A stretch of DNA of 64,000 bases from Streptosporangium carneum. Its GTDB lineage: Bacteria > Actinomycetota > Actinomycetes > Streptosporangiales > Streptosporangiaceae. The position numbers and the translations under genes are program-made. The first letter of the stretch is position 1. Every line of letters starts with the position of its first letter. The stretch covers positions 124,001-188,000 of the forward strand of contig NZ_BSEV01000006.1 in the NCBI RefSeq assembly GCF_027922005.1, given 5' to 3'. The notes under the pieces are model-generated. The model was given only the letters and a program-made list of their open reading frames with translations. It was not told the origin of the DNA and did not search any database. This document shows positions 6,318 to 48,172 of the stretch, piece by piece.

Positions 6318-7573
6318 AACTCGCCGTTGTCGGGGGCGGCTCGACGTACACGCCGGAGCTTATCGACGGATTCGCACGGCTGCGGGACGAACTCCCCCTC
6401 ACCGAGATCGCTCTGGTCGATCCGGACCCCAACCGTCTCGAACTGGTCTCCGGGATGGCCCGCCGGATGCTGGCGCACGCCGGTCACCCGGCCAGGGTCG
6501 TCGCGACCGGTTCGGTCGAGGAGGGCGTCGCCGGAGCCCACGCGGTCCTGCTGCAGCTGCGCGTCGGCGGCCAGGCCGCCCGCAACGTGGACGAGACGCT
6601 GCCGCTCGAGTGCGGCTGCGTCGGCCAGGAGACCACCGGCGCGGGCGGTCTGGCCAAGGCGCTGCGCACCGTCCCCGTGGTGCTGGACATCGCCGCGAAG
6701 GTGCGCGAGCACGCTCCCGACGCCTGGATCGTCGACTTCACCAACCCGGTGGGCATCGTCACCAGGGCGCTGCTCGAGGCCGGGCACCGGGCCATCGGCC
6801 TGTGCAACGTGGCCATCGGCTTCCAGCGCCGCTTCGCCGCCAAGCTGGGGGTCGCTCCCGAGCGGATCTCGCTGGGCCACGTGGGCCTGAACCACCTGAC
6901 CTGGGAGCGGGCCGTGTTCCTCGACGGCGTGGACGTGCTGCCCCGGCTGCTGGAGAGCCACGGCGAGGAGATCGCCCAGGACATCGGCCTGCCCGTCTCC
7001 CTGATCCGCCACCTCGGCGTCGTGCCCTCCTACTACCTGCGCTACTTCTACGAGCACGACGCCGTGGTCGAGGAGCAGCGGAGCAAGCCGTCCCGCGCCG
7101 CCGAGGTGGCGGCGATGGAGGCCACGCTGCTGGAGATGTACGCCGACCCGTCGGTGAACACCAAGCCCGAACTGCTGGAGAAGCGGGGCGGGGCGTTCTA
7201 CTCCGAGGCCGCGGTCGCGCTGATCGCCTCTCTGCTCGGCGATCGGGGCGACACCCAGGTGGTCAACCTGCGCAACGACGGCACGCTGCCCTTCCTGTCC
7301 GACGACGCGGTCATCGAGGTCCCCGCCACGATCACCGCGACCGGCGCGAAGGCCCTGCCCGTCGACCCCGTCGAGCCGCTCTACGCGGGGCTCATGGCGC
7401 ACGTCACGGCGTACGAGACGCTGGCGCTCGACGCCGCGCTGCACGGCGGCGTCGAACGCGTCTCCGACGCGCTGCTGGCCCACCCGCTGATCGGCCAGGC
7501 CTCGCTGTCGGACGACCTCGCACGGCGCCTCGTCGAGGCCAACCACCGGCACCTGCCCTGGGCGACAAGGTGA
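6314..7573 (+). CDS. GH4 family NAD-dependent 6-phospho-glycosidase
   Basis: 419-aa glycoside hydrolase family 4 enzyme. Rossmann start VVGGGSTYTPEL (5-16), FTNPVG at 142-147, and the probable metal ligands Cys164 (GLCNV) and His194 (GLNH), matching the LicH/6-phospho-beta-glucosidase layout. GH4 enzymes use NAD+ and Mn2+ to split mostly 6-phosphorylated glycosides by a redox-elimination route. GTG at 6314 is chosen because it overlaps the permease stop (GTGA) and begins directly with the Rossmann strand. Subfamily is inferred; alpha-type GH4 activities cannot be excluded. Confidence 0.88.
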   Translation: MKLAVVGGGSTYTPELIDGFARLRDELPLTEIALVDPDPNRLELVSGMARRMLAHAGHPARVVATGSVEEGVAGAHAVLLQLRVGGQAARNVDETLPLECGCVGQETTGAGGLAKALRTVPVVLDIAAKVREHAPDAWIVDFTNPVGIVTRALLEAGHRAIGLCNVAIGFQRRFAAKLGVAPERISLGHVGLNHLTWERAVFLDGVDVLPRLLESHGEEIAQDIGLPVSLIRHLGVVPSYYLRYFYEHDAVVEEQRSKPSRAAEVAAMEATLLEMYADPSVNTKPELLEKRGGAFYSEAAVALIASLLGDRGDTQVVNLRNDGTLPFLSDDAVIEVPATITATGAKALPVDPVEPLYAGLMAHVTAYETLALDAALHGGVERVSDALLAHPLIGQASLSDDLARRLVEANHRHLPWATR

Positions 7574-20220: not shown

Positions 20221-20404
20221 AACCCGCGAGTTCGAGTGCATTGTCCTGCCCTGCCGGGGCAGGACGTACTTCTCGGACACCCGCCCACGAAAGACTCCGA
20301 CATGGAGAGACCGATCTCGCCTCGGCGCGGTCACGGCGCCGGAGGGCCGCACCGCGGCGACCTGCCGTCTCCTGCCCCGGAGAAGCGGGCATGACATGGA
20401 ACGG

Positions 20405-20410
20405 TAGGTT
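20405..20410 (+). promoter_or_regulatory. Candidate leaderless -10 box of the RNB gene
   Basis: TAGGTT, 7 nt before GTG 20418. It argues for the GTG rather than ATG 20391. Confidence 0.45.
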
Positions 20411-20417
20411 GACCCCC

Positions 20418-21845
20418 GTGCCTCACAAGAGCATCCGGGTGCCCGGAGAGTCCCATCCCCGGCTCAGCGACGGCTTCGAGCGGATCCGCAGGGAGCTGAA
20501 GCTCCCCGACGGGTTCCCCCTGGCCGTGTCCGAGGAGGCGGAGTGGGTCGTCGAGGTGCCCGCGCTGCCCTCCCTCGACCGCACCGACCTTCCGCTGATC
20601 ACCATCGACCCGCCGGGCTCCATGGACCTGGACCAGGCCATGCACCTGGAGGAGCGTCCGGGCGGCTACCGCGTCTGGTACGCCGTCGCCGACGTGGCCG
20701 CGTTCGTACGGCCGGGCGGCGCGATCGACACCGAGGCCCGCAACCGGGGTGAGACCGTCTACATGCCGGACGGACGGGTGCCGCTGCACCCCACGGTGCT
20801 GTCCGAGGGCGCGGCCAGCCTCCTTCCCGGAGCCACCAGACCCGCCGCGCTGTGGTGCGTCGACCTGGACGCGGAAGGCCGGATCGTGGGCTCGGACGTG
20901 ACCAGGGCCCTGGTGCGCAGCCGCGAACGGCTGGACTACGACTACGTCCAGGCGGCGGTCGAGACCGGCACCGCGGACGGCACGCTGCGGCTGCTGGCCG
21001 AGATCGGCAGGCTCAGGCTGGCGCTCGAGCGGGCCAGGGGCGGTGTCACGCTGCCCACGCCCGAGCAGGAGGTCGTCCCCGACGGGGACGGCTACCGGGT
21101 CGAGCTGCGCGCCCCGCTGGAGGCAGAGGCGTGGAACGCGCAGATCTCCTTGTTGACCGGCATGGCCGCCGCCTCGATGATGCTGGACGCGGAGATCGGC
21201 CTGCTGCGGGTGCTGCCGCCCGCTCCGGCGGAGAAGATCGCCCAGGTCCGCCGGGTGGCCGCCGCGCTCGGGGTGCCGTGGCCCGAGGGGGCGGCGTACG
21301 GCGACGTCGTCCACGGGCTCGACCCGAAGATTCCCGGGCAGGCCGCGTTCCTGGAGGAGTCGACGGTGCTGCTGCGCGGAGCCGGATATGTGGCCTTCAA
21401 CGGCGAGCCCCCCGTCCAGGCGGACCACGCCGCGGTGGCCGCGCCGTACGCCCACGTGACCGCACCGCTGCGCAGGCTCATCGACCGCTACGCCACCGAG
21501 ATCTGCCTGGCGGTGGCGGCGGGCGAACCGGTGCCCGAGGACGTCCAGCGGGTCATGGGCGAGCTGCCGGGCATCATGCAGTCGACCGGACGGCGCGCGG
21601 GCGCGGTCGAACGGGCCTGTGTCGACCTGGTCGAGGCGTTCGTGCTGCGCGAGCGGGTGGGCCAGACGTTCGACGCGGTGGTGATCGACGTGGACGGCGG
21701 CCATCCCTGGGGGCAGGTGCAGGTCACCGACCCGGCGGTGGTGGCCCGCTGCGACGGCGAGAACCTCCCGCTGGGCGAGGCGGTCAAGGTACGGTTGACG
21801 CGCGCCGATCCGGCGACCCGGGAGGTCCGCTTCAGCCTGGCCTGA
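20418..21845 (+). CDS. RNB domain ribonuclease (RNase II/R family)
   Basis: 475-aa 3'-5' exoribonuclease. RNB core begins with TIDPPGSMDLDQAMHLEE, holding the catalytic aspartates, then VAAFVRPGGAIDTEA, GETVYMPDGRVPLHP and the late APYAHVTAPLRRLIDRYATE. Cold-shock and S1 domains of full RNase R are missing; this compact form is common in actinobacteria. Frame opens at 20241; GTG 20418 chosen from the leaderless signal and the usual N-terminus, ATG 20391 (GGAGAAG upstream) remains possible. Confidence 0.9.
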   Translation: MPHKSIRVPGESHPRLSDGFERIRRELKLPDGFPLAVSEEAEWVVEVPALPSLDRTDLPLITIDPPGSMDLDQAMHLEERPGGYRVWYAVADVAAFVRPGGAIDTEARNRGETVYMPDGRVPLHPTVLSEGAASLLPGATRPAALWCVDLDAEGRIVGSDVTRALVRSRERLDYDYVQAAVETGTADGTLRLLAEIGRLRLALERARGGVTLPTPEQEVVPDGDGYRVELRAPLEAEAWNAQISLLTGMAAASMMLDAEIGLLRVLPPAPAEKIAQVRRVAAALGVPWPEGAAYGDVVHGLDPKIPGQAAFLEESTVLLRGAGYVAFNGEPPVQADHAAVAAPYAHVTAPLRRLIDRYATEICLAVAAGEPVPEDVQRVMGELPGIMQSTGRRAGAVERACVDLVEAFVLRERVGQTFDAVVIDVDGGHPWGQVQVTDPAVVARCDGENLPLGEAVKVRLTRADPATREVRFSLA

Positions 21846-21889: not shown

Positions 21890-22057
21890 TTACCTCTTCA
21901 GGGTCCAGCCCGCTCCGACACCTGCCAGGTGCAGGGCGACGCAGAGCAGTCCCGCGATGGCGAGCGTGGTGACGGTTACGACGGTGCCGACGGCCACACC
22001 GGCGATCTGGAAGATCAGGGCGAGAACGAACAGCAGTGCGGCGGCGAGGGCGAACAT
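21890..22057 (-). CDS. Conserved-type small membrane protein, 55 aa
   Basis: Very hydrophobic 55-residue protein (starts MFALAAALLFVLALIFQ, ends GWTLKR) with two probable membrane helices, about 4-26 and 28-46. Strong GGGAGG ribosome site 7-12 nt before ATG 22057 and a clean TAA stop. The sequence style resembles small actinobacterial membrane proteins of unknown function. Convergent with the RNB gene. Confidence 0.75.
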   Translation of the reverse strand: MFALAAALLFVLALIFQIAGVAVGTVVTVTTLAIAGLLCVALHLAGVGAGWTLKR

Positions 22058-22254: not shown

Positions 22255-22728
22255 GGTGTTCGACTGGTTCGTTCGGCTGGTCCGCTTTGTTGTCTTGGTT
22301 GGGGTGGTTCGGCTTTGTTCGCGTGGAGGGGGGCGCACAGACCGTAGTCGCTCCCTTTTCCGGCCGCCCATTCATCCCTGGGCGGCTGAAGCAACCTGCC
22401 AGGGTTCCATCCATGGTCGATCGCCGTAGCTGAAGCCCGGTGCGGAAAGGAGCGCAGGGCTGAGCTGGAAAAACCCTCGCGGAGAGAAGGGCCTCCCCAC
22501 CCGTGAGGCGCCGGCTTCGCTGGGCCGCCTGTTGCCCGCCCCCTGATCGTTGCCCAGAGCACCCCCGCCGACATTCTCGGGCGCAGTACCCCCACCGGTG
22601 CTCTCAGGCACAGCACCCCCAGCGGCGTTCTCGGGCCCAACGCCCACCCTGACGTTCTCGAGCACAACGCCCCCACCGACGTTCTCGGGCAGGACACGCC
22701 TACGGGTGTTCTCCGGGGGCGGCCGGAA
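22255..22728. repeat. Left arm of the island's long imperfect inverted repeat
   Basis: Reading inward: a G/T-rich stretch, TTTGTTCGCGTGGAGGGG (ends 22336), a CCGTAGTCGCTCCCTTT block, GTAGCTGAAGCCC (22426-22438), a segment to about 22545 nearly identical to the right arm (hairpin with a TTCG-containing loop around 22507-22530), then the 27-bp minisatellite. The right arm at 24541-25212 carries the same blocks in the same order in opposite orientation. No supported gene. Confidence 0.8.
22540..22728 (-). repeat. 27-bp minisatellite, left array
   Basis: Five clear 27-bp units (22567-22593, 22594-22620, 22621-22647, 22648-22674, 22675-22701) with a degenerate unit on each side. On the minus strand the core is CCCGAGAACGTC followed by GGTGGG-type sequence. 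Because 27 is a multiple of 3, frames stay open on both strands, which makes spurious ORFs. Confidence 0.9.
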
Positions 22729-22769
22729 TACGCCGGAAAGGGGCCGCGGGTTGCTGTAGCCGCAGCTCA

Positions 22770-23110
22770 ACGGGTTCGGCGGTAGACGCGACATCCTCTA
22801 GGCGCACATAGCGGCCGAGGCTGGCAAGGTGCTGGTGGCGACTCCTGGCCTGCAACTCCGGGGCGGTACGCCCGGCCTGGGCGAGATGCTGCAGCGCGCT
22901 GTGGCGAAGCTGGTGCGACGTCCACCCCTGACGGTGCTGGTCGAGCTGGGCGGAGGCGGTCTTGAACAGGTACTCGGCACACGAATAGGGCAGGCGGCCC
23001 CGCCCGGTGACGGGGCAGATGTCGGGGGCCGCGGGCACGCAGATCCGGAGACAGGGGCGCGCCGGTCGGCCAGGAACACCGGCCCGGCGGTGCCGACCGG
23101 CCGGCACCGA
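22770..23110 (-). pseudogene. Tyrosine recombinase (integrase) C-terminal remnant, frameshifted
   Basis: Minus-strand translation gives the end of a phage-type integrase catalytic domain: GPVFLADRR in one frame (about 23105-23075), then after a frame change CPVTGRGRLPYS, WTSHQLRHSALQHLAQ and SRHQHLASLGRYVR. These carry the HxLRH box, the next His and the probable nucleophile Tyr. The N-terminal arm, core-binding domain and first catalytic Arg are missing, so it cannot be active. Its 3' end runs into the minisatellite. Marks this interval as remains of an integrated element. Confidence 0.75.
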
Positions 23111-23388
23111 CACTTCGATATGTCTTTAGTGGCTAAAACTCGATACAAAGAGTCGCGAAGTAAATTTCCCGCTCCGTGCTATTGATTCAGCGTCGATCAA
23201 AATGCACCATCATATTGGGTCCCTGAGGAAAGCGGGCCGGGGCTAAGCGGCCGAGAATCCACGATGCCGTCGCATTCAGCACGATCGACGCCGCCCCCAA
23301 AGGCGCACGCAAAATTCTGGTTTCGGCTGCCATCATTTTCGGCAGCATTGAGCACCAAATCCCATACACCAAAGGAAGGGAGCACGAC

Positions 23389-23724
23389 ATGCGCCTGCTC
23401 AAGAAGCTCGCCAGCGCCGCCGCCGCAGCAGTGATGGCGGGTGGCGCACTGCTCGCCACCGCCCCCGGCTCCTACGCCGCATCCGAGCCCGACCCCGCCC
23501 CCGCCCTGCTCGTGGAGGCGCCAACCTGCGTCAGCCGCCCCGTGTACGAGGTGCCCGGCGGCTTCGACGTGTTCATGACGAACAGATGCGGTCGCACCAT
23601 GTACGTCAGAGTCATCGTCGACTGGGCCCCCGACAGCGTCTGCATCGAGCTTCTCAACAACCAGTCGAGAACGTGGCACTACCAAGGCGTGACCGGGCAG
23701 TACGACCACCTGGCCCTGTGCTGA
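23389..23724 (+). CDS. Small secreted protein with tendamistat-like cysteine pattern
   Basis: 111 aa. Signal peptide (KK at 5-6, alanine-rich core, cleavage near SYA-A at 28-31), mature part about 80 aa with four cysteines: 47, 67, 85, 111. Spacings 20/18/26 compare with 16/18/28 in the Streptomyces amylase inhibitor tendamistat, and the central T-x-Y-V-R-V-x-V-D strand and final -C terminus also match. The WRY triad that inhibits amylase is absent, so the target is unknown. Good AAGGAAGGGAG ribosome site at 23371-23381. Sole plausible intact gene in the island; AT-rich upstream DNA suggests transfer. Confidence 0.7.
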   Translation: MRLLKKLASAAAAAVMAGGALLATAPGSYAASEPDPAPALLVEAPTCVSRPVYEVPGGFDVFMTNRCGRTMYVRVIVDWAPDSVCIELLNNQSRTWHYQGVTGQYDHLALC

Positions 23725-23936
23725 TACCGAAAACGACATCAAGTCGCGCTCGCGCCTATTCCCGAGCACAACAAGAACAGTTAAGGCCTCGCCGTTAATA
23801 AACGCGTCCATGGGTCCTGAGAATGGAGTCTGTCAGACCCGTTCGTCGTTCGGCCGTCTCTTCTGCAGGGGCGGCCCGGGACCGGTGAGCCGCACGGCCA
23901 CAGGCCGGGCCGGGCCGGGCCGGATGGACTCAAGCC

Positions 23937-23969
23937 GGGCGGTGCGGTAGGCACACCACCGCACCGCCC
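23937..23969. repeat. 12-bp perfect inverted repeat
   Basis: GGGCGGTGCGGT (23937-23948) and its complement (23958-23969) around a 9-nt loop, after a run of CCGGG pentamers. Possible terminator; no gene ends beside it. Confidence 0.5.
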
Positions 23970-23997
23970 GTCCCCTGTTGTACGGAGGTCCGCTCTG

Positions 23998-24069
23998 ATG
24001 GGATGTCCCACCAGGCCCGGCGCTCGGGTCGGTGTCGCCAGGGGTGAAGTAGCCCAGCGTGAGATCTGA
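23998..24069 (+). CDS. Possible 23-codon small ORF ending in a hairpin
   Basis: ATG 23998 follows GGAGG (23984-23988) by 9 nt and reads 23 codons (MGCPTRPG... QREI) to a TGA that lies inside the left arm of a strong hairpin. RBS, ORF and terminator together look like a tiny gene, leader peptide or the end of a lost gene. No known family. Confidence 0.25.
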   Translation: MGCPTRPGARVGVARGEVAQREI

Positions 24070-24099
24070 CCGGACAGAACGTTGATTCTGTCCGGTCAG
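24066..24099. terminator. 14-bp perfect hairpin in the island
   Basis: CTGACCGGACAGAA (24066-24079) and its exact complement (24086-24099) around a 6-nt loop. Strong intrinsic-terminator-like or operator-like structure. Confidence 0.6.
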
Positions 24100-24133
24100 C
24101 ACCCCCGCGCAGCCCGTTTCTGCCGTATTCCGG

Positions 24134-24188
24134 TGGCACCCCTTCTCGGGCGGGACACCCCCACCGGCGTTCTTGGGCAGGGAGTCCC
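24134..24188 (-). repeat. Detached fragment of the 27-bp minisatellite
   Basis: Two units in the orientation of the left array (CTTCTCGGGCGGGACACCCCC and ACCGGCGTTCTTGGGCAGG), between the hairpin and the right arm. Confidence 0.6.
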
Positions 24189-24540
24189 GTTCGGCTTCTC
24201 CGGCAGGTGATGGTCATCACTGTGCGTTCGTTCCCGCCGGGGGCGTCCCGCCAGGGGGTCGGCCGTGTTCGCCGCGTGCCGGCGGGAGTGTTTTCAGTGG
24301 CGGTGCCGGCCGGGGTGGTGTCGCCTGCTGTCGCTGCCGGTCACGCGGGCGGTTCGAGGCCAGCCCGTCACGGGGGTCGGTGGTGGCGGCCGTTTCCCCT
24401 GGCCCGCTGTCGTCCCGCTCTCGCTTCCCGTTGTCGTCCTGTTCCTGCTGTCGTGGCGGCGAGGGGTCAAATCACAGCGGAGATCGCTCTGTCAGGAGCC
24501 CCGGAAGTCGAGTGGGGTGCTCTGCCCAACAACACCACTG
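24189..24540. other. Island core without recognisable gene
   Basis: Pyrimidine-rich low-complexity DNA with CTGTCGT-like iterations. Several overlapping frames are open but none has a ribosome site, domain or natural residue composition. I see no supported gene. Confidence 0.5.
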
Positions 24541-24790
24541 GGGGTGCCCTGCCTGAGAGTGCCGGGGGTGTCTGCCCGAGAACGTCAGTGGGGGCAGGGG
24601 TGCTGTGCCCGAGAAGGTCAGTGAGGGTGTCCTGCCTGAGAACGTCAGGGTGGGCGCTGTGCCCGAGAAGGTCAGTGAGGGTGTCCTGCCTGAGAACGTC
24701 AGGGTGGGCGCTGTGCCCGAGAACGCCGGTGGGGGCACTGTGCCCGAGGATGTCGCTGAGGACGCCCTGAGCAACGATCAGAGGGCGGGC
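24541..24790 (+). repeat. 27-bp minisatellite, right array
   Basis: About eight units of the same 27-bp repeat as the left array, now on the plus strand (core TGCCCGAGAACGTCAG). Includes an exact 54-bp tandem duplication: 24603-24656 is repeated base for base at 24657-24710, a sign of recent slippage or recombination. Confidence 0.9.
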
Positions 24791-25010
24791 AACAGGCGGC
24801 CCAGCGAAGCCGGCGCCTCACGGGTGGGGAGGCCCTTCTCTCCCCGGGGGTTTTTCCAGCTCAGCCCTGCGCTCCTTTCCGCACGGGGGCTTCAGCTACG
24901 ACGAGGTGCCCTGAACCGAACCACGGCGGATTGCTTCAGCGTCAGTCAGGACGCTGGGCGGTCGGAAAGGGAGCGACTACGGTCCGCAGGGCGTACGGCG
25001 GAGCAGCATG

Positions 25011-25141
25011 GCGTGGAGGGGGGCGGGTGGTCCGGCCGGCGTATAAAAGGACCGCGACCACCGGCGCCCGCCAGGCCGGAGGCCTGATCTCACCAGAGCT
25101 CAGCTGAGACGGCCGGCCGGACCACCCGCCCCCCTCCACGC
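25011..25141. mobile_element. 131-bp MITE-like element with perfect 30-bp terminal inverted repeats
   Basis: 25011-25040 (begins GCGTGGAGGGGGGCGG) is exactly complementary to 25112-25141. The 71-bp interior holds GGCCGGAGGCC and GAGCTCAGCTGAGAC. The left arm of the island has only one copy of the outer terminal sequence at the equivalent place, so this looks like an insertion or a fold-back expansion. No clear target-site duplication, no ORF. Confidence 0.65.
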
Positions 25142-25218
25142 GAACAAAGCCCAGCCCAGCAAACAAAACGAACCAAGCGGACCCAGCCAACCAAGCAAAC
25201 CAACCGACCCCAGCGAAC

Positions 25219-25258
25219 ACCGCAGCTCAGGTCAACGAACCGCAGCTCAGGTCAACGA
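25219..25258. repeat. 20-bp exact tandem duplication at the end of helY
   Basis: ACCGCAGCTCAGGTCAACGA occurs at 25219-25238 and again at 25239-25258. The second copy holds the last codons and TGA of the helicase gene, so the duplication reproduces the gene's 3' end at the island border. Confidence 0.8.
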
Positions 25259-27976
25259 GGAGTAGGCCACCACGCCGCGCCTGAGCGCGTCCATCGCCTT
25301 GCCCGCGTTCTGCTTCACCTTGCTGCCGGTCGGCGCGGCGTCGGAGATCTGGCCGAGCAGGTCGAGCAGCTGCTTGATCCAGCGTACGAAGTCTCCCGCG
25401 GCCAGTTCGGAGCCGTTGACGCCGTCGCCCAGCACCGCGTCCAGGGTGTGACCCCTGGCCCAGCGGAAGGCCGCCCAGGCGAACCCGAAGTCGGGCTCCC
25501 TGATGAACGACAGGCCGTGATCGCTCTCGATGGACTCCAGTTCGCCCCACAGACGGACCATGTCGCCCAGCGCCTTCTGCACCCCGCCCGCGGGAATCCT
25601 CGGCTGGCGCGCCTCGTCGGCCTGCCTGGACTCGAAGACCAGCGAGGAGACGCTGGCGGCGAGCTCGGCCGGGTCGAGGCCCTCCCAGAGCCCGGCGCGC
25701 AGGCACTCGGCGGTGAGCAGGTCGAGCTCGGTGTACAGCTGGGCCAGACGGCGGCCCTCTCCGGTGACGTTCTCACCGTCGAGGTAGCCGAGCTGGTCGA
25801 GCACCCCGCAGACCTTGTCGAAGGTGCGGGCGATGACGTGGGAGCGGCCCTCGACCCTGCGGCGCAGCCCCTCGGTCTCGCGGAGCAGCTTGTAGTAGCG
25901 CTCCGCCCAGCGGGCGTGGTCCTCCCGCTCGTCGCAACCGTGGCAGGGGTGCTGGCGGATCTCCCTGCGCAGGCGGAGGATCTCCTCGTCCTCCGCGGCG
26001 TGGTCGCGTGCCCTGGCGGGCTTGCCGAAGTCGCGGTCGCCGATCTTGGCGTGCATGGAGGAGACCAGGTTGGCCCGCTCCTTCGGCGAGCGCGCGTTGA
26101 AGTTCTTCGGGATGCGCAGGTGCTCGACCGGCTCGACGGGGACGGGGAAGTCGGCGGGTGAGAGCTTCTTCACCTGTTTGCCGATGGTCAGCACCAGCGG
26201 GGAGGGGCCCTCGCCCCGGGAGTTGAGTCCCGGGTCGAGGACGACCGCGAGCCCCGCCCTGCGCCCGCCGGGAACGCGGATGATGTCACCGGGCTTCAGC
26301 GCCTCCAGCGAGCGCAGCGCCTGCGCCCTGCGGGCCGCGCCGCGCTGCCGCGACAGCTCGGCCTCCCGGTCCGACAGCGCCCTGCGCATCGCGGCGTACT
26401 CCTCGAAGTCGCCCAGATGGCAGGTCATCGCCTCGCGGTAGCCCTGCAGCGCCTCCTCGTGGCGGCGCACCTGCTTGGCGATGCCGACGACCGCCCTGTC
26501 GGCCTGGAACTGGGCGAAGGAGGACTCGAGCAGCGATCTGGCGCGTTCCCTGCCGACCTGGCCGACCAGGTTAACCGCCATGTTGTAGGAGGGGCGGAAG
26601 CTGGAGCGCAGGGGGTAGGTCCGGGTGCTGGCCAGGCCCGCCACCTGCAGCGGGTCCATGCCGGGCTGCCACTGGACCACCGCGTGGCCCTCGACGTCGA
26701 TGCCGCGCCGTCCCGCCCGGCCGGTGAGCTGGGTGTACTCGCCCGGGGTGAGGTCGGCGTGGGTCTCGCCGTTCCACTTGTCGAGCTTCTCGATCACCAC
26801 GGAGCGCGCGGGCATGTTGATGCCCAGCGCGAGGGTCTCGGTGGCGAACACGGCCTTGACCAGGCTACGGGTGAACAGCTCCTCGACGACCTCCTTGAAG
26901 GCCGGCAGCATGCCCGCGTGGTGGGCGGCCAGGCCTCGCTCCAGGGCGTCGCGCCACTCGAGATAGCCGAGCACGGCCAGGTCCTCGTCGGGCAGGTGCG
27001 CGGTGCGCTCGTCGACGATCTGCCGGATCTCGTGGCGTTCGGCGTCCGTGGTGAGCCGGATCCCGCCGTACAGGCACTGCATGACCGCGGCGTCGCAGCC
27101 GGCCCTGGAGAAGATGAAGGTGATCGCGGGCAGCAGGCCCGCGGCGTCGAGACGCTCGATGGTCTGGGCGCGGTCGGGCGGGCCGCTCCTGCGCGGGCGG
27201 GAGTAACCCCTGCGGCCCCTGCCGTAGGCCTGGCGTTCCTCGTCCCTGGCCAGACGCAGGAGGTTCGGGTTGACCAGCGGGCGTTTGCCGTCCTCCTCGG
27301 AGACGAACAGGTCGTACAGGCGGTGGCCGACGAGCATGTGCTGCCAGAGGGGGACCGGGCGGTGCTCGTCGACGATGACGCTGGTGTCGCCGCGGACCTC
27401 GCCGAGCCACTCGCCGAACTCCTCGGCGTTGCTGACCGTGGCGGAGAGGGCGACCAGCCGGACCGACTCGGGCAGGTGGATGATCACCTCTTCCCATACG
27501 GCGCCGCGGAACCTGTCGGCCAGGTAGTGCACCTCGTCCATGACCACGAAGCCGAGCCCCGCCAGGGTCCCCGACCCGGCGTAGAGCATGTTGCGCAGCA
27601 CCTCGGTCGTCATGACGACGATGGGGGCCTCGCCGTTGACGCTGTTGTCACCGGTGAGCAGGCCGACCTTGGCCGCGCCGTACCGTTTGACGAGATCGTT
27701 GTACTTCTGGTTGGACAGCGCCTTGATCGGGGTCGTGTAGAAGCACTTGCGGCCCTCCTCCAGGGCCAGGTGCACGGCGAACTCGCCCACCACGGTCTTG
27801 CCCGAGCCGGTGGGGGCGGCCACGAGCACTCCGTCGCCCGCCTCGAGAGCGCGGCAGGCGTCGAGCTGGAAGTCGTCCAGCTCGAAGTCGTACAGACCGC
27901 GGAACGAGGTCAGTGCAGGCCCGCTGTCGGCCTGGCTCTGACGGAAGGCAGCGTAACGTTCCGCTGGGGTCGTCAT
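25247..27976 (-). CDS. helY: Ski2-like DEAD/DEAH helicase, HelY
   Basis: 909 aa. Motif I APTGSGKT, motif II MDEVHYLADRF, motif III LSATVSN, motif VI (LTGRAGRRGID); then a beta-barrel insertion and C-terminal helical DSHCT domain. Related to the RNA-exosome cofactor helicases Ski2/Mtr4; role in bacteria is presumed RNA unwinding or surveillance. ATG 27976 lies 7 nt after TAGGCT. Its place beside tatC, tatA and pafC/pafB is the usual actinobacterial order. Last codons fall in a duplicated 20-bp sequence. Confidence 0.93.
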   Translation of the reverse strand: MTTPAERYAAFRQSQADSGPALTSFRGLYDFELDDFQLDACRALEAGDGVLVAAPTGSGKTVVGEFAVHLALEEGRKCFYTTPIKALSNQKYNDLVKRYGAAKVGLLTGDNSVNGEAPIVVMTTEVLRNMLYAGSGTLAGLGFVVMDEVHYLADRFRGAVWEEVIIHLPESVRLVALSATVSNAEEFGEWLGEVRGDTSVIVDEHRPVPLWQHMLVGHRLYDLFVSEEDGKRPLVNPNLLRLARDEERQAYGRGRRGYSRPRRSGPPDRAQTIERLDAAGLLPAITFIFSRAGCDAAVMQCLYGGIRLTTDAERHEIRQIVDERTAHLPDEDLAVLGYLEWRDALERGLAAHHAGMLPAFKEVVEELFTRSLVKAVFATETLALGINMPARSVVIEKLDKWNGETHADLTPGEYTQLTGRAGRRGIDVEGHAVVQWQPGMDPLQVAGLASTRTYPLRSSFRPSYNMAVNLVGQVGRERARSLLESSFAQFQADRAVVGIAKQVRRHEEALQGYREAMTCHLGDFEEYAAMRRALSDREAELSRQRGAARRAQALRSLEALKPGDIIRVPGGRRAGLAVVLDPGLNSRGEGPSPLVLTIGKQVKKLSPADFPVPVEPVEHLRIPKNFNARSPKERANLVSSMHAKIGDRDFGKPARARDHAAEDEEILRLRREIRQHPCHGCDEREDHARWAERYYKLLRETEGLRRRVEGRSHVIARTFDKVCGVLDQLGYLDGENVTGEGRRLAQLYTELDLLTAECLRAGLWEGLDPAELAASVSSLVFESRQADEARQPRIPAGGVQKALGDMVRLWGELESIESDHGLSFIREPDFGFAWAAFRWARGHTLDAVLGDGVNGSELAAGDFVRWIKQLLDLLGQISDAAPTGSKVKQNAGKAMDALRRGVVAYSSLT

Positions 27977-48001: not shown

Positions 48002-48039
48002 GGCCACCTCCTTCGGGGATTGACGCGTCCCTCTTCGTA

Positions 48040-48172
48040 GGTCGGTGGCGGTCGAGTGACCTGGCTTCCAGCCCCGAGGGGCCAGTTACAGTGGCGCGAC
48101 CGCACCGGAATCTCACCGGATTTCCCTCGCACCGCCACAAAACAACCGGAACGTACCCCGGTTTCCTACCGC
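48040..48172 (-). promoter_or_regulatory. Cobalamin (AdoCbl) riboswitch
   Basis: On the minus strand the hallmark elements occur in order: GGTGCGAGGGAAATCCGGTG, AGATTCCGGTGCGGTCGCGC, CACTGTAAC, and the B12 box GGAAGCCAGGTCACTCGACC. It ends about 40 nt before cbtB. Known class II-like B12 switches repress translation or elongation when cobalamin is plentiful; here it would control the whole cobalt/B12 operon. Confidence 0.93.

Follow-up and report, generated by a model that had tools for sequence, protein, structure and literature searches.

The 64,000-nucleotide (nt) stretch of Streptosporangium carneum analysed here (the window; forward-strand positions 124001–188000 of NZ_BSEV01000006.1, from a 9.84-Mb draft genome labelled G000) contains an island of accessory DNA enclosed by two long inverted repeat arms, between an RNB-domain exoribonuclease gene and a DEAD/DSHCT helicase gene. 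Throughout, G-numbers denote the genomes compared, with G000 as the window's own, L-numbers denote loci, and f-numbers denote gene families. A first-pass annotation had described a lone island at this position; comparison with related genomes revealed instead one of many paired brackets distributed across the family Streptosporangiaceae.

Four inverted matches between 22258 and 25204 bear out the annotated arms with ordered shared blocks: 22436–22716 vs. 24608–24888 (281 nt, 84% complementary), 22258–22335 vs. 25127–25204 (78 nt, 74%), 22385–22438 vs. 24887–24940 (54 nt, 76%), and 22340–22358/24966–24984 (19 nt, perfect). The nearly identical stretch noted within the arms, longer than 100 bp, was recovered as 22421–22560 vs. 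24764–24904 (94% identity), and a 28-nt probe taken from it matched the window twice (with at most 3 mismatches) vs. a mean of 0.00 times in 100 shuffles. The island ends near 22256 and 25218 when the two tails are compared by eye, which is within a few bases of the annotated limits. The left arm has lost approximately 140 nt holding the hairpin and retains the motif up to profile position 130 together with the outer tail. Between the arms lie, as annotated, an integrase remnant (PF00589, E 1.7e-6, 28.4 bits vs. a cut-off of 27.1) and a secreted-looking 111-aa open reading frame (ORF) with a signal-like N-terminus. At the DNA level, the remnant resembles stretches of integrase regions in Streptomyces, Verrucosispora, and Nonomuraea records (67–79% identity), and plasmid records match the island in this stretch only; against the Xer/integron model, the remnant scored 14.4 bits vs. 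a cut-off of 220. The 111-aa ORF matched no Pfam or NCBIfam family and has weak relatives in Nonomuraea gerenzanensis and Streptomyces sp. SAT1. The features of the locus are listed in Table 1.

Table 1. Coordinates of the island and its immediate neighbours in the window.
Feature	Position	Strand	Remark
Entire island, arm to arm	22256..25218	.	Ends inferred from where the tail match stops
Left arm outer tail, C/A-rich reading outward, with final 15 nt of the lost hairpin	22256..22335	-	Inverted repeat with 25127-25204
Left motif copy lacking the hairpin half; covers profile positions 2-130	22334..22462	-	
Left inner GC-rich block	22463..22545	-	Near-identical to right arm
27-bp minisatellite within left arm	22555..22716	-	Repeat families D1, D8
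Cargo: tyrosine recombinase C-terminal remnant	22700..23113	-	PF00589, E 1.7e-6
Cargo: 111-aa ORF, signal-like N-terminus, no known family	23389..23724	+	
27-bp minisatellite within right arm	24514..24761	+	Repeat families D2-D5
Right inner GC-rich block	24764..24858	+	24764-24904 vs. 22421-22560, 94%
Right motif copy, complete, ~285 nt, outward-reading	24859..25146	+	
Hairpin: perfect 30-bp stem 25011-25040/25112-25141, 71-nt loop	25011..25141	+	Stem is repeat I11; covariation
Small inner hairpin CAGGCC-GGA-GGCCTG in loop of main hairpin	25072..25086	+	Helix 2 of covariation test
Right outer tail, C/A-rich	25142..25218	+	Tail composition of 99 arms
Left neighbour outside island: RNB-domain exoribonuclease gene	20400..21845	+	PF00773; adjoins helicase gene in 14 congeners
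Left neighbour outside island: 55-aa hydrophobic ORF, 5' end towards island	21890..22057	-	
Right neighbour outside island: DEAD/DSHCT helicase gene, 3' end towards island	25247..27976	-	In 16/16 genus genomes

Alignment of the genome matches showed that the conserved core of the arms is a motif of ~285 nt with a hairpin (24859–25146 in the right arm), the near-identical block being the inner part of the arm. The first-pass annotation had placed the core at 22420–22545 and 24770–24905 and had proposed that this block folds into hairpins; the arm is indeed structured, whereas the core reaches out to 25146 and the stem (25011–25040/25112–25141) lies outside the block that had been stressed. Most motif copies are 75–90% identical to each other and share the boxes GCTTCAGC (twice) and CTACGG, a TATAAAA in the loop, and the long hairpin at the outer side.

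To assess the fold, 105 full arms were reduced to 79 by dropping copies at least 95% alike or shorter than 265 nt, from which 50 representatives were drawn and 40 aligned. In these 40 diverse copies, 93% of the pairs in the stem (30 column pairs) and the inner hairpin (6 pairs) were standard. Compensatory changes were found at 15 of the 36 pairs (80 cells), three of which (13/142, 14/141, and 15/140) are unpaired in 30, 7, and 35 rows, respectively; none of 500 shuffles reached this level, and sliding the partner by 1–3 columns left only 0–4 compensatory pairs. When all column pairs of the 79 copies were ranked without guidance by average product correction (APC), stem pairs took the top three places and five of the top six, the sixth (10/14) not being a stem pair. 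The window copy gave fold z-scores of -7.0 on the outward strand and -5.7 on the inward strand. The arms hold a covarying structured element, and this covariation could also stem from templated correction of palindromes in DNA. The earlier proposal of a structured RNA or the end of a mobile element is borne out as far as the covarying structure is concerned; the arms had no match in Rfam 15 at the gathering score, the sole match in the window being an adenosylcobalamin (AdoCbl) riboswitch elsewhere, and the scanned cargo contained no complete transposase. A known structured RNA was rejected, the best model at the arms being mir-3622 with 28.5 bits vs. a cut-off of 78, and PtaRNA1 also falling far below (E up to 1).

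Beyond the hairpin, each arm continues into a tail of short repeats resembling the motif's own end. The 100-nt tails of 99 arms consist of C 44, A 26, G 24, and T 6%, compared with C 35, A 14.5, G 35, and T 15% downstream of 541 control genes, and the C–G skew is positive in 93 of the 99, giving the C-rich, G-poor tail that characterises Rho-dependent terminators. C-rich, G-poor tails of this kind load Rho. A C-rich, T- and G-poor tail following a hairpin, pointing away from the cargo and directed towards gene 3' ends, is what would be expected of a Rho-dependent shield.

In all searches made, the motif was restricted to one family of antibiotic-producing actinobacteria. The search of the arm block against related genomes that the first-pass annotation had called for yielded, with a 161-nt left-arm block as the query, 24 matches in G000 and matches in 11 of the 60 genomes searched, including its own. 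DNA searches detected the motif in 13 of the 16 genus genomes and, with another query, in 15 of 120 family genomes. A covariance model of the hairpin half matched 45 of 297 Streptosporangiaceae genomes, representing 13 of 68 genera, and phylum-wide only 1 of 296 genomes, namely the window's own. Three genomes of the same genus (G007, G013, and G015) showed no motif by either DNA search or the covariance model. Scanning the named genome collection by pattern returned 69 stretches. Streptosporangium, Planobispora, and Planomonospora account for 49; the remaining 20 were rejected as motif copies, the covariance model giving no match to them up to E = 1, while two in-family loci scored 118 and 89.8 bits. 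The single-contig genome G004 contained at least 26 matches, copy numbers from the genome searches being lower bounds with 6–40 candidates scored per genome. The copy number in G000 is uncertain because many of its contigs end within the hairpin. Contigs of this draft often break in or beside arm hairpins (C1, C24, C34, C39, C41, C51, and others).

The arm motif matched no plasmid record, the island matched no phage record, and the arm pattern matched no viral contig. A plasmid or phage origin was rejected, as plasmids share only the integrase stretch and phages nothing. A tRNA attachment site was also rejected, no tRNA being present in the window, as was a telomere or chromosome-end role, since the arms are internal in single-contig chromosomes (G003 and G004).

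The arms occur mainly in pairs pointing away from each other. Among 70 loci with arms of score at least 60, 36 of the 41 neighbouring arm pairs less than 10 kb apart were outward, enclosing 469 to 8,879 bp (median 1,635), with a cargo GC content below that of the flanks in 31 of the 36. These loci were picked through arm matches, except for the orthologous stretches used for the sites termed W, A, B, C, and D below. The flanking genes converge on the element in 27 of the 35 elements for which a gene was called on each side (one of the 36 was dropped, having no gene on one side). When counted by distinct site, flanks were convergent at 9 of 15 sites vs. 92 of 737 control gaps (p = 2.5e-5), and the outer neighbour's 3' end faced the arm for 84 of 100 arms vs. 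46% of control gap sides. A minimal cargo-free unit was sought among five spacers shorter than 800 bp and rejected, as these share no single sequence; those of L051, L072, and L090 appeared by eye to resemble decayed genes.

The cargo of the 36 elements comprised 90 ORFs by a simple gene caller, of which 77 were scanned with Pfam; the other 13 consist largely of near-identical copies and include the hemL-like gene of L085. The families found include alpha/beta hydrolases, TetR, MerR, MarR, and PadR regulators, short-chain dehydrogenases, NmrA-like and SnoaL-like proteins, HAD hydrolases, GNAT acetyltransferases, ABC ATPases, a P450, a ketosynthase, and glycosyltransferase pieces, among others. 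L057 contributed the only mobility gene seen in the 77 scanned ORFs, a 92-aa piece of a DDE transposase, and neither a complete transposase nor a complete integrase was among them; as the caller missed the window remnant, decayed mobility genes may be under-counted. An all-against-all comparison revealed only one family common to different sites, between two genomes: a MerR gene that is extra in G006 at site f151/f82 has an 80%-identical relative at site C in G002. With no more than this one cargo family recurring between sites, the idea that the elements carry a conserved gene was rejected. At several sites, clusters of f0, f2, and f84 genes, which resemble ordinary whiJ-type regulators, lie beside a single arm (L013, L039, L040, L042, L043, L044, L045, and L100). 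At site f20/f31 (L105:14812–16884 and L049), the arms enclose a short-chain dehydrogenase gene in G029, whereas in G095 its 88%-identical counterpart stands outside them.

Arm pairs with the same neighbours recur in different species and genera, and their contents differ. In a comparison made between species, not strains, only 8 of 37 same-site element pairs, at ten shared sites, had a cargo family in common (at least 55% identity), and the other 29 had none. At the window's site (W), no arm was present in any of 15 other Streptosporangium genomes (fetched stretches of 8.5–8.9 kb); the RNB and helicase genes were both located in 14 of the 15, the RNB gene of G012 lying outside the fetched stretch. 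This comparison with island-free genomes agrees with the earlier description of the island as accessory. The opposite possibility that had been raised, an ancestral and immobile block, holds in part for the family, whose sites are shared across genera, and not for the window copy. Site A carried arms in 6 of 7 loci (one arm in G002, empty in G012), site B in 7 of 16 genomes, site C in 5 of 17, and site D in 6 of 12; at site B, the neighbours are less than 150 bp apart in 7 of the other 9 genomes.

Individual changes could be traced at some of these sites. At site C, the cargo is inverted in G006 relative to G001: positions 6833–8194 of L086 match the minus strand of L096 (92%), the flanks are collinear (96–99%), and the inversion breaks within the arms or close to them. 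Both of these genomes keep the same 8-kb cargo at site B. At site D, one entire arm (355 bp) is absent in G001 compared with G006, at a short homology and with 12 nt of the inner end left, which looks like loss of an arm by deletion. Median arm identity was 0.948 within pairs, 0.889 for arms at another site of the same genome, and 0.736 between genomes; between-genome identity was low at the same sites too, except in sister species. On the arm tree (105 arms), the rows belonging to the 12 shared sites, 78 in all, required 25 changes when grouped by genome and 36 when grouped by site.

These results lead us to favour, tentatively and with less than even confidence, the reading that the island represents one copy within a family of paired bracket repeats specific to Streptosporangiaceae, with cargo exchanged by homologous recombination and arms acting as a transcription shield. 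The general plan would be two outward ~285-nt hairpin motifs with C/A-rich tails around variable accessory genes, often between convergent genes. Bracketing, hairpin covariation, shared and vacant sites, changes of cargo with one inversion, and the within-genome likeness of arms are established by the data; the mechanism behind them is our proposal. As for the mechanism of turnover and shielding, we infer that cargo is gained, replaced, and inverted through housekeeping homologous recombination, the arms, together with the flanking core genes, serving as portable homology; because the arms would supply this homology, the bracket would need no encoded recombinase. Recombination from copy to copy would homogenise the arms inside a genome. 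Judging from their sequence, the arms may persist as outward transcription stops, with a hairpin followed by a C-rich, T- and G-poor tail, which would shield the 3' ends of neighbouring genes from cargo transcripts.

Several observations weigh against this reading. Only one clear inversion was found, 5 of the 41 neighbouring arm pairs are non-outward (4 pointing the same way and 1 inward), and 31 of the 70 loci have a single arm (arms of score at least 50; some are at contig ends or have the partner beyond the stretch). The window itself is atypical, in that both neighbours of its site are on the minus strand and are not convergent, and its left arm is without the hairpin. Stem mismatches include 14 distinct G–T events vs. 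5 A–C events, a lean towards an outward RNA that is not significant (p = 0.064). The likeness of arms within a genome could be explained equally well by lineage-specific bursts of spread. Plain recombination, moreover, leaves the arrival of an arm pair at an empty site, as in the window, unexplained; this is the weak step, at which a transposase may act in trans.

Such a transposase is central to a rather unlikely alternative, in which the arms are the ends of a non-autonomous transposon moved in trans, with cargo as passengers and insertion favoured in gaps that lie past the 3' ends of genes. Inverted, outward arms would follow naturally, as would a site without arms in 15 of 15 relatives, patchy occupancy elsewhere, and arms that are alike within a genome and present there in many copies (26 matches in G004). 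The cargo, however, is not copied along with the arms, a single family being common to different sites, in two genomes, and no complete transposase was found among the scanned cargo ORFs. No target-site duplication was made out by eye at sites W, A, B, and C, where the intergenic sequence is too diverged to place one, and the loss of a single arm in G001 resembles deletion at short homology. A Y1 or REP-associated tyrosine transposase (RAYT; PF01797) as the mobiliser was ruled out by its distribution, which is independent of the arms: G012 has arms without PF01797, and G007 and G013 have PF01797 without arms.

The conserved boxes and strong covariation, together with the fold z-scores (-7.0 outward vs. 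-5.7 on the other strand) and the slight excess of G–T on the outward strand, would suit an arm that either is a gene for a structured RNA transcribed outward or forms the end of the cargo mRNAs, with gene turnover as a side effect of position. We regard this as improbable, since the G–T excess is not significant, a stand-alone RNA hardly accounts for arms that pair outward around changing cargo, and entire species of the genus lack arms (G007, G013, and G015). A functionless selfish palindromic repeat, in which templated correction of the hairpin at replication creates compensatory changes without selection, seems to us more improbable still: the mostly Watson–Crick stem changes, the likeness of arms within pairs, and the growth of tandem repeats in tails and inner blocks speak for it, but the half upstream of the hairpin is likewise conserved across genera, and the orientation of the flanks is far from random.

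Compared with known systems, the brackets combine familiar traits in a different way. Miniature inverted-repeat transposable elements (MITEs) and composite transposons resemble the brackets in their inverted non-coding ends, their passengers, and the lack of a transposase; here, unlike in either, cargo differs between copies in one genome and arms are re-used at the same sites across genera. The transposase between or within the ends that defines insertion sequences and transposons is absent from the scanned cargo and the window, apart from the 92-aa fragment of L057 and the integrase remnant of the window. Integrons likewise combine variable cassettes with folded recombination sites, but their cassettes stand in tandem, each bearing an attC, and come with an integron integrase; the arms form inverted pairs, and no integrase scored above the cut-off of the Xer/integron model. 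Repetitive extragenic palindromic (REP) sequences and the related bacterial interspersed mosaic elements (BIMEs) and REP doublets forming hairpins (REPINs) resemble the arms in being intergenic, palindromic, often in inverted pairs, and numerous in each genome. REP repeats are described as 20–40 bp long, whereas the arms comprise ~285 nt plus a tail and flank whole genes, and the Y1/RAYT transposases (PF01797) cognate to REP repeats do not track the arms.

The closest parallels are the minimal mobile elements (MMEs) of Neisseria, for which the passages that define them report that strains differ in the whole-gene cassette, free of mobility genes, that sits between two given conserved genes, and propose homologous recombination (PMC3082526). 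Different cassettes between the same conserved genes were likewise found at 10 shared sites here, and the single inversion, whose breakpoints fall within the arms or close to them, and the within-genome likeness of arms fit the homologous recombination proposed for MMEs. Unlike in that definition (PMC3082526), which includes no structured bracket in the passages concerned, two copies of a ~285-nt motif bracket each cassette, at many sites per genome. In the relevant sections of Oliveira et al. 2017 (PMC5635113), half of the hotspots studied had no mobile-element evidence and 27% had none of the mobility proteins sought; many novel integrase-lacking elements were considered very surprising, and homologous recombination was favoured. 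Our sites share with these hotspots a fast gene turnover at fixed positions, often without integrases, and differ in being marked by a shared sequence, none being described in those sections (PMC5635113).

No report of such a repeat in Streptosporangiaceae was found in the open-licence literature searched, and the S. roseum genome paper, in its one passage on resolving repetitive regions, does not mention the arm repeat. The bracket repeat is apparently undescribed; its logic is common to MMEs and mobile-element-free hotspots, and the conserved structured bracket is the addition, contributing a covarying ~285-nt element without an Rfam match. The bracket pair may help explain gene swapping at hotspots without mobile-element machinery, and sequence-defined brackets would make hotspot ports findable by sequence, countable, deletable, and testable. 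Whether the arms go further and constitute a dedicated recombinase-free cassette port, a structured DNA or RNA element that a whole bacterial family maintains at shielded intergenic positions, its outward pairs insulating the chromosome from any gene placed between them and supplying homology for gain, for exchange among ports and species, and for flipping, we consider doubtful; if true, transfer hotspots without mobile-element genes would have a general mechanism in it.

Other features were observed within and around the island. The minisatellites at 22555–22716 and 24514–24761 have a 27-bp unit, equal to a nine-codon period, and run in opposite orientation in the two arms. A GC-rich inner-arm block of ~47 nt (22495–22541) is also found in G000 at places without a complete arm (C7, C1, and C2). 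At the island edge, a perfect 20-bp tandem duplication (25219–25258) overlaps the stop codon of the helicase gene. The 55-aa hydrophobic ORF (21890–22057, minus strand) between the RNB and helicase genes is present at the same site in most congeners, with a GTATTGACCGGGCGGTCAGTT-like palindrome upstream of it that many of them share; in G003, G005, and G008, a short gap is all that lies at this place. The AdoCbl (cobalamin) riboswitch lies at 48020–48151 on the minus strand and scored 56 bits, above the Rfam cut-off.

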